Shown one piece after another: positions 16,466 through 36,130 of a stretch of 36,282 bases of DNA. Every line of letters begins with the position of its first letter. Position 1 is the first letter of the stretch. The position numbers and the translations under genes are program-made. Source of the stretch: Candidatus Tiamatella sp. (lineage in GTDB: Archaea; Thermoproteota; Thermoprotei_A; Sulfolobales; Acidilobaceae). The DNA is taken from positions 1 to 36,282 of the forward strand of contig WALV01000056.1 of NCBI GenBank assembly GCA_015522645.1. The letters are read 5' to 3'. Below the pieces are notes generated by a model. The model was not told where the DNA came from. It made no database searches and saw nothing but the letters and a program-made list of their open reading frames with translations.

Positions 16466-16579
<114 letters not shown>

Positions 16580-33372: not shown

Positions 33373-33445
33373 GCCGGGGTAGCTCAGCTGGTAGAGCGTC
33401 GGGCTGTTAACCCGATGGTCGGGGGTTCAAGTCCCCTCCCCGGCG
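33373..33445 (+). tRNA. tRNA-Asn (anticodon GTT)
   Basis: Acceptor GCCGGGG/CCCCGGC, D-arm TAGCTCAGCTGGTAGAGCG, anticodon arm TCGGG-CTGTTAA-CCCGA giving GTT, variable loop TGGTC, T-arm GGGGGTTCAAGTCCCCT. Discriminator G and encoded CCA (33446-33448). No intron. Confidence 0.96.
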
Positions 33446-33550
33446 CCATAACGTGTGGAGAGGGGGCCCCGGCGCACAAACCCATTCTTCAAAACAAACC
33501 CTCACTTTGAGTTAACTCTTAAAATCCTAGAGAGATAATCCATTGAAACA

Positions 33551-33663
33551 AGGGGCGGACGGGGGTCGATGCTCCAGTAATCCCTGGCTCCAGACCCGGC
33601 GAATAGAATACGGGTCTAATGACCCCAAGCGGGGATGAACTATTACTGGAGCTAAGCTCGGAG
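33551..33663 (+). ncRNA. structured RNA segment in front of the orphan tRNA 3' half
   Basis: A perfect 11-bp stem joins GCTCCAGTAAT (33571-33581) and ATTACTGGAGC (33642-33652). Inside it are a 7-bp hairpin AGACCCG/CGGGTCT (33592-33598 and 33611-33617) and CCCC/GGGG (33623-33626 and 33631-33634). A TATA-like CTTAAAAT at about 33518 would start a transcript near 33550. I do not recognise an RNA family, and no C/D or H/ACA boxes are clear. It may be leader or intervening RNA of the adjacent tRNA half. Confidence 0.5.
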
Positions 33664-33665
33664 AG

Positions 33666-33701
33666 ACCCGTAGGTCGGGGGTTCAAGTCCCCCCGGGCCC
33701 A
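33666..33701 (+). tRNA. orphan tRNA 3' half (positions 38-73); candidate split tRNA
   Basis: From 33666 the sequence is a flawless tRNA 3' half: A38, anticodon-stem strand CCCGT, variable loop AGGTC, T-arm GGGGG-TTCAAGT-CCCCC, acceptor strand CGGGCCC, discriminator A and CCA (33702-33704). CCCGTAGGTC is identical to the spliced tRNA-Lys in this window. No 5' half with GGGCCCG and a D-arm lies upstream back to tRNA-Asn or within 1 kb downstream. Bases 33660-33666 fit half of a BHB (GGAG then bulge AGA). Trans-splicing is therefore likely; a relic of integration or a dead fragment are the alternatives. Likely identity Lys(CUU), Arg(CCU) or Ile2(CAU). Confidence 0.65.
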
Positions 33702-33772
33702 CCACACCCAAACAGGGGAATAACGGGCTCCTAACCCCAATTACTCAATAACTCTCCTCGGGGATGAGAGCA

Positions 33773-34777: not shown

Positions 34778-36130
34778 TTGGTTGACCCCGCCTTAGTTGA
34801 TATTTCTAAAATAGACCAGGAGACGCGGTATAAGATATTCATGTACCTATGGAAGAAGCGTGTAGGGAGTAAAGACTTACACATTCATCCTACATATGCG
34901 AATAGGATAAAGAACCGGCGGGTACGTGTCTCGGATAATGTTCTCGGTAAGCTTTTGGAATATTTGACAGCAGAGGAGTTAGCGGAACTCACGGGAGTAT
35001 ATACTATTGAGAAAGTGGAACCTCACACACTAATACAGGTTGTAAAGGCGGGGCTGGCGGACCCACAGCTGAGGGACATTGTGATTGATATGGTTATGAG
35101 GTACGTGGATCTAGGGGAGTACGAGAGGAAATACAGGGTATTAGAGGATGACCTAAAGAAGTTCGAGGAGTTCCTGAGGAGGAACAGGAGGCGTAAAACA
35201 GTCCAAGACAGGCTTTACTATCTCAAAGTAGCGTTAAAGGATAACCAGTTCGTCCTAGACGCCTCTAGGCTAGACGACTACATAATGGAGAAGGCCGAGG
35301 ATTCGATAGACAGAGCAATACACATAGCAAGAGCACTCAAACTATTCCTAAAGGTAGTCGTGAGGCCGAAGGAGCCTAGAAAGTTCCTAATACTATACAA
35401 CAGCTTCACGACCCCCAGCAAGAGAAGAAAGCAACTCCCACGAGCCCTGAAAATACTACACGACAAAGAGGAACCACTCTCACTCGAGGACATAAGAGAG
35501 GTAGCCAGACACATAGAGAATCCAGCCGCTAAGCTAGCCTATGTATTATTGGCAGAGACGGGGCTTCGCCCTAGCGAGGTATTCAACTTAACACTGGGAG
35601 ACATGGACTTAGAGACGAGATCAGTCATACCAGCCAAGATAACGGAGAGCAAAAGGGCATACATAAGCTTCTTCTCGCAGGCAACCCGAGACTACATCGA
35701 GAAAGAATATCTTGAATGGCGTGAAAATTACATCAAGGACAACCTCGCTAGGATAAGGAACATAGCTAGGCAATGGACTCCTAGAGGCCTGTATAACTCG
35801 ATAGATGAGCTAGTAGGGGATTGGGAAAACAAGCTAATACCGATCAAAGAGTCCAGACTACGTTCAATGATAAATGATGCAATGACCGAAGCAGGAATAG
35901 CCTTCAGACTATACGAGCTTAGGAGCTTCTTCACAAGCTGGATGATACAACACGGAGCCCAAGAGATATGGGTAAACATCTTCCAAGGAAGAGCCCCTCC
36001 AAAACAATTCGAAGTAATGGTAAACCACTACCTACAACCAGTACTAGAGAAACGGGGAACATGGAAACAAGCTTTAATCCGAGTACGAGAAAAATTCTAT
36101 GACCCGTTTGCATATACTATATTCCAGTAA
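34778..36130 (+). CDS. archaeal tyrosine integrase (SSV/pNOB8-like)
   Basis: A 450-residue protein whose C-terminal part is an archaeal-type tyrosine recombinase. Box I is AETGLRPSEVFNL (first Arg); a Lys occurs in ITESKRAYISF; box II reads YELRSFFTSWM, with Tyr where many recombinases have His; QGRAPP replaces the usual GH motif; the nucleophile is probably Tyr in VNHYLQPV. This pattern is typical of crenarchaeal virus and plasmid integrases. The N-terminal 230 residues are helical and basic and probably bind arm sites. The TTG start has no strong ribosome site, consistent with a short leader. Placement beside tRNA-Val suggests it made the insertion; the gene is uninterrupted, as in the pNOB8 style. 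Confidence 0.85.
   Translation: MVDPALVDISKIDQETRYKIFMYLWKKRVGSKDLHIHPTYANRIKNRRVRVSDNVLGKLLEYLTAEELAELTGVYTIEKVEPHTLIQVVKAGLADPQLRDIVIDMVMRYVDLGEYERKYRVLEDDLKKFEEFLRRNRRRKTVQDRLYYLKVALKDNQFVLDASRLDDYIMEKAEDSIDRAIHIARALKLFLKVVVRPKEPRKFLILYNSFTTPSKRRKQLPRALKILHDKEEPLSLEDIREVARHIENPAAKLAYVLLAETGLRPSEVFNLTLGDMDLETRSVIPAKITESKRAYISFFSQATRDYIEKEYLEWRENYIKDNLARIRNIARQWTPRGLYNSIDELVGDWENKLIPIKESRLRSMINDAMTEAGIAFRLYELRSFFTSWMIQHGAQEIWVNIFQGRAPPKQFEVMVNHYLQPVLEKRGTWKQALIRVREKFYDPFAYTIFQ

Follow-up and report, generated by a model that had tools for sequence, protein, structure and literature searches.

Split tRNAs in archaea and the closest described systems

Split tRNAs are established in Nanoarchaeum equitans, Caldivirga, Aeropyrum, Thermosphaera, and Staphylothermus (PMC3218864, PMC4390854, PMC4033280). 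According to a review, the two-piece split tRNAs of Caldivirga are those for Gly, Glu, and Ala. Whether such tRNAs survive from an ancient stage of tRNA assembly or result from recent breakage of intron-bearing genes has long been debated. A joined tRNA of N. equitans was reportedly first labelled Trp and later shown to be Lys(CUU). Here we describe a tRNA-Trp(CCA) that is very probably encoded by two separate genes, with a joint at positions 30/31 and a separate cis intron in the 3′ gene. The 3′ gene lies at 33552-33704 of contig WALV01000056.1 from Candidatus Tiamatella sp. (assembly GCA_015522645.1, family Acidilobaceae), of a heat-loving and uncultured archaeal lineage, the 36,282-nt stretch that we analyzed and call the window. 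The window is contig C56 of a draft genome, G000, which comprises 1.54 Mb in 71 contigs and is 98.4% complete. The split is also found in two other genomes of the same genus, g1 (G001 and G002), and in one of genus g11 (G012).

The nearest known system is the split tRNA-Lys(CUU) of Staphylothermus marinus and S. hellenicus; the same joint is used in N. equitans (PMC3218864). The tRNA described here resembles it in having two genes, a joint at 30/31, a standard bulge-helix-bulge, a 13-nt trans helix, and only one split tRNA per genome. Even a change from G-U to G-C in the helix between sister species is common to both. In contrast, the isotype here is Trp, the 3′ gene has an extra cis intron at 37/38 (none is listed for the split tRNA-Lys), and sister genera still have the gene unbroken, with an intron where the split lies, and with synteny that can be traced. 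Closer in taxonomy is the split tRNA-Asp of Aeropyrum, which NCBI places in Acidilobaceae; we took genome G014 as Aeropyrum pernix, having found the published tRNA-Asp 5′ half at its published coordinate. That tRNA is likewise made from two transcripts with complementary ends, but its joint is at 37/38 and its halves are adjacent in the genome. Since tRNA-Asp is intact in G000, the splits of tRNA-Asp and tRNA-Trp are independent events.

An intron-containing archaeal tRNA-Trp(CCA) with an intronic box C/D guide RNA has also been described (PMC4090602). It is the same tRNA, with an intron at 37/38 and stretches complementary to the anticodon region; unlike it, our case has two genes, with the intron wholly in the 3′ gene, and imperfect guide boxes. 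A split tRNA-Trp does not appear in the table of PMC3218864, and full-text literature searches returned none. Two features set the present tRNA apart from known split tRNAs: its isotype, Trp, and the guide-like cis intron that its 3′ gene carries. It adds Trp, absent from the published lists that we consulted, to the split isotypes, and nothing else in this case decodes UGG. One tRNA here brings together trans splicing and a cis intron that resembles a guide.

Two genes and their trans helix

The features of the 3′ gene and its immediate surroundings are as follows.

33373 to 33448, plus strand: tRNA-Asn(GUU), ancestrally next to tRNA-Trp and here immediately upstream of the 3′ gene
33517 to 33526, plus strand: TATA-like element TCTTAAAATC, the best match in the 90 nt upstream; a modest 5.6 bits, reached by 0.26% of window 10-mers
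33552 to 33564, plus strand: leader strand of the trans helix, GGGGCGGACGGGG, pairing at 13/13 positions (one G-U) with the trailer CTCCGTCCGCCCC at G000:C44:5500-5488 (minus strand)
33565 to 33568, plus strand: GTCG, central 4-bp helix of the bulge-helix-bulge, pairing with C25-G26-G27-C28 of the 5′ gene (by inspection with a duplex fold); GCCG in three relatives
33569 to 33571, plus strand: 3′ bulge AT/G, with the predicted cut between 33570 and 33571
33571 to 33577, plus strand: exon 2, tRNA-Trp positions 31-37 (GCTCCAG), identical to intact relatives; anticodon CCA at 33574-33576
33578 to 33665, plus strand: cis intron at 37/38, 88 nt, with a box C/D-guide-like core conserved order-wide; GGAG and AG at its 3′ end
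33610 to 33654, plus strand: intron core CGGGTCT..GACCCC..GGGGATGA..ACTGGAGC, complementary to tRNA-Trp around the anticodon; the pattern is present in most intron-bearing relatives
33666 to 33701, plus strand: exon 3, tRNA-Trp positions 38-73; the joined product is tRNA-Trp(cca) by ARAGORN
33702 to 33704, plus strand: encoded CCA

The 5′ gene, positions 1-30 and a trailer, is outside the window at G000:C44:5532-5488 (minus strand); its exon (5532-5502) reads GGGCCCGTAGCTCAGCCAGGGAGAGCGGCGG. In the three relatives the 5′ exon is also separate from the 3′ piece and on another contig, at G001:C14:14955 (minus), G002:C242:10019 (minus), and G012:C35:17623 (plus). The trailers that follow it are ACTCCGTCCGCCCC in G000, ACCCCGTCCGCCCC in G001, ACCCCGCCGCCCC in G002, and GCCTGCCCCGTCCCC in G012. 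The leaders that precede GCTCCAG are GGGGCGGACGGGG-GTCG-AT in G000, GGGGCGGACGGGG-GCCG-AT in G001, GGGGCAGGCGGGG-GCCG-AT in G002, and GGGGACGGGGCAGG-GCCG-AT in G012. Leader and trailer form a G+C-rich helix of 13 bp in G000 and G001, 12 bp with one bulged A in G002, and 14 bp in G012. Duplex energies range from -36 to -44 kcal/mol, no shuffled pair out of 2,000 did as well, and pairing a leader with a trailer of the other genus gave a weaker duplex. Between G001 and G012, five pairs have changed on both sides with pairing kept. Single-strand folding of the 3′ segment gave no signal (z of -1.15).

All four genomes can form a standard bulge-helix-bulge at 30/31, in which C25-G26-G27-C28 pairs with GCCG or GTCG between the bulges GG/A (GG/G in G012) and AT/G. 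When the exons are joined, ARAGORN calls a complete, standard tRNA-Trp(cca) in every case, differing at 2-3 of 77 positions from the intronless tRNA-Trp of G003 (3/77 for G000). TATA-like elements are predicted before both pieces, using a matrix built from the upstream regions of G000 tRNA genes (applied, for the 3′ piece, to the 90 nt upstream); the one before the 5′ piece scores 9.0 bits. No continuous Trp anticodon arm turned up in any of the four split genomes, even with as many as three mismatches allowed. A whole-genome tRNA scan of G000 likewise gave no tRNA-Trp(CCA), and a separate scan of G001 returned no Trp, though it did recover Tyr, Ser(CGA), and Leu(GAG), which are absent or partial in the G000 assembly. 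A second split, of tRNA-Tyr, had been suspected from the lack of Tyr in G000 and was rejected, as G001 carries a contiguous Tyr gene.

We propose the following mechanism. Gene 1 would be transcribed as positions 1-30 plus a G+C-rich trailer, and gene 2 as a G+C-rich leader, exon 31-37, the 88-nt intron, exon 38-73, and CCA. Pairing of leader and trailer over 12-14 bp would create the bulge-helix-bulge across the joint; the tRNA splicing endonuclease would then cut at GG/A and AT/G, and an RNA ligase would join position 30 to position 31. Removal of the 37/38 intron would be ordinary cis splicing.

Intact tRNA-Trp in relatives

Searching with the 3′ segment and its upstream DNA retrieves tRNA-Trp genes across the order, and in these relatives the gene is intact. 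Its layout is GGGCCCGTAGCTCAGCCAGGCAGAGCGGCGG, an intron at 30/31 in some, GCTCCAG, a second intron with the conserved core, and ACCCGTAGGTC. The mature tRNA-Trp, GCGGGCTCCAGACCCGTAGG, is fixed by intronless relatives such as G003. Because the intact and intronless genes set the boundaries, 33571-33577 can be assigned to exon 31-37, and GGAG/AG to the end of the cis intron; the cut in the AT/G bulge is placed in the same way.

An earlier note on this DNA, which dealt with 33660-33704, had proposed a trans-spliced tRNA, and in this it was right: the Desulfurococcales-like archaeon has a two-gene tRNA, of isotype Trp(CCA). Its reading of the bases also stands, with GGAG at 33660-33663, AG at 33664-33665, A38 at 33666, positions 38-73 at 33666-33701, and CCA at 33702-33704. 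At 33660-33704 no tRNA is called by ARAGORN or, at the gathering threshold, by Rfam. The segment is not a chance resemblance; together with the upstream intron it is ~77-89% identical to relatives across the order. The note had put the trans joint at GGAG/AG/A, ~95 nt downstream of where we place it, at 30/31; we assign GGAG/AG/A to the 3′ side of the 37/38 cis intron. It also saw no 5′ half nearby, which is true of positions 1-30, found on another contig, but not of positions 31-37, which sit across the 88-nt intron.

Among 48 genomes of the family, 4 have the split gene and 35 have an intact one (that of G004 being cut by a contig end); the remaining 9 comprise genomes in which we did not see the gene and G031, whose 5′ exon meets a contig end. 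The intact family genes mostly have the intron at 30/31, while genus g8 has one at 37/38 and genera g2, g7, and g10 are intronless. We also examined 50 named loci in GTDB genomes: 46 hold an intact Trp gene, 1 holds another tRNA, 1 is cut by a contig end, and 2 are split (L207, JALUZI010000151.1, and L240, WAOQ01000004.1, both labelled Desulfurococcales archaeon). In sister family f10, the gene of genome G056 has both introns, the one at 30/31 ending GGGCCGAT/GCTCCAGT, like the split leader. A tree of the DUF1512 protein, which replaced MetRS as marker since MetRS had no match in G012, groups the four split genomes in one clade (100/100), beside the 34 further family members that were sampled. 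With four split genomes and intact genes in 35/44 other family members, most having the 30/31 intron, the best reading is that a gene already carrying an intron was split a single time, in one clade. The G031 locus (L392, G031:C25:31442-31521), where the tRNA-Trp 5′ exon is followed by unusual sequence into the contig end, could represent a longer intron, an assembly break, or another split.

Gene neighborhoods and origin of the split

In genera g13, g12, g14, g7, and g2, tRNA-Trp, a small gene (B133), and tRNA-Asn follow one another in the same orientation, often preceded by a NUDIX gene. The 5′ piece of the split genomes is found with NUDIX and B133, the latter now convergent, and the 3′ piece stands directly after tRNA-Asn and before tRNA-Val. 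Both arrangements are common to g1 and g11, except for an inversion of the block that holds the 5′ piece, B133, and a CLP1-like gene. The split is therefore best read, from gene order, as one old event, with both pieces descending from one ancestral cluster.

We suggest that a cis intron interrupted the ancestral gene at 30/31 and that the DNA was broken within this intron in the common ancestor of the two genera; the 5′ piece would have kept NUDIX and the small gene, and the 3′ piece tRNA-Asn. How the break came about we can say only tentatively. One possibility, to which we give somewhat less than an even chance, is a tandem duplication of the Trp-small gene-Asn cluster followed by reciprocal loss of Trp halves within the 30/31 intron. 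Such a course would yield the observed order and orientation. If it is true, living sister genera display the intron-to-split route both before and after the split, and the case is that of an essential single-copy tRNA whose 3′ gene bears its own guide-like intron. Unbroken genes with a same-position intron in sister genera and outgroups, retention of ancestral neighborhoods, and a single split clade are direct comparative evidence for a late, intron-to-split route.

Alternative explanations

We considered other accounts of the 3′ segment. In the earlier note it was to be joined at 37/38 to a distant 5′ half of tRNA-Lys(CUU), Arg(CCU), or Ile2, whose positions 32-35 are possible pairing partners of GGAG. 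Trp(CCA), an option missing from the note's list, likewise offers GGAG a partner in C32-U33-C34-C35. Each isotype that the note proposed proved to have a complete gene in the whole-genome scan of G000, with Lys(CUU) at C43:37777-37882, Arg(CCU) at C53:24-148, and, for CAU, three tRNAs. A search of G000 for the predicted 5′ half (GGGCCCG...ACGGGCTC plus the complement of 33648-33659) gave only two Lys genes and three non-tRNA matches; the actual 5′ piece stops at position 30 and carries a trailer whose complement lies at 33552-33564. With the Trp exon 31-37 just upstream, an intron orthologous to cis introns of relatives, and intact orthologs of the 3′ end that are tRNA-Trp, this version is refuted and we give it practically no chance.

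Could the segment be dead, an attachment-site remnant or pseudogene, with the real tRNA-Trp in an unassembled part of the genome? G000 does have other partial tRNA copies that look like remnants, and an integrase gene lies beside tRNA-Val. This is very unlikely, given that no intact Trp gene was found in the four assemblies, which are independent and include two at 95-98% completeness, that both pieces are conserved with compensating helix changes, and that G001 carries the 3′ piece with no integrase match in its neighborhood. Nor did we find an intact tRNA-Trp for an attachment site to duplicate; the nearest similar 3′ end, that of tRNA-Ile(GAU), is not identical. As the genomes are draft assemblies, an intact gene might have been broken between contigs. 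Against this, both pieces are contig-internal, between genes, and in the same neighborhoods in G000, G001, and G012, the 3′ piece of G002 is contig-internal as well, and leader and trailer do not form a contiguous intron, which leaves an artefact hardly credible.

Some points count against a two-gene tRNA-Trp. The evidence for it comes from DNA sequence, all four genomes are draft metagenome assemblies, and promoter support for the 3′ piece is modest (5.6 bits). Noncanonical splice joints are thought to require a heteromeric splicing endonuclease, whereas we found a single PF01974 gene per split genome, though a second, divergent subunit may be missed. Set against the conserved pairing and synteny, these points leave the two-gene tRNA-Trp with its separate cis intron as very much the most probable explanation. 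Two genes from the split 5′ piece is a CLP1-family RNA-kinase-like gene (PF16575; L187:3776-5098), whose place is kept in both split genera.

The 37/38 intron and flanking DNA

The intron has a GGATGA box that is C-like, degenerate D boxes, and an Rfam match below threshold; it lies at 37/38 and contains stretches complementary to the tRNA. A box C/D guide function is suggested by this position, the literature (PMC4090602), and the complementarity. Within the intron, GGCTCCAGACCCG at 33586-33598 is an exact copy of the spliced junction region of mature tRNA-Trp (positions 30-42) and can pair with the guide-like CGGGTCT at 33610-33616. Comparable target mimics occur inside the intron of some relatives (L215, L219, L216, L239, and L242). 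In the leader, ACGGG at 33559-33563 was tried as an anticodon stem and rejected as part of the leader stem.

About 20 nt after the encoded CCA is a motif, GGGCTCCTAA (33725-33734), that also follows tRNA-Trp and several tRNA-Lys genes in relatives order-wide; perhaps it is a termination or processing signal. The overlapping AACGGGCTCCTAACC (33722-33736) resembled a permuted 5′ half; we rejected it, as it has no D arm and as a motif like it also comes after the unbroken tRNA-Trp genes of relatives.

A phage-integrase-family gene at 34778-36130 directly follows tRNA-Val(CAC) near the contig end and has no match in the G001 and G012 neighborhoods. Elsewhere in G000, partial tRNA copies with one end replaced (C13:2416-2487, C49:10567-10639, C49:12848-12891, C18:8065-8113, C70:7264-7344, and C19:84101-84162) look like attachment-site remnants of integrative elements. 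In the tRNA-Lys(UUU) gene at 16466-16573 of the window, a noncanonical intron lies within the variable region or close to it; tRNA-Lys(CUU) here and in many relatives shares this intron. Finally, tRNA-Asn and the adjacent Trp 3′ exon have T-loop variants in common, TTCAAGTC in both genes of G000 and TTCGAGTC in both of G001 (33373-33448 and 33666-33701; L310 and L056), which suggests gene conversion between neighbors.
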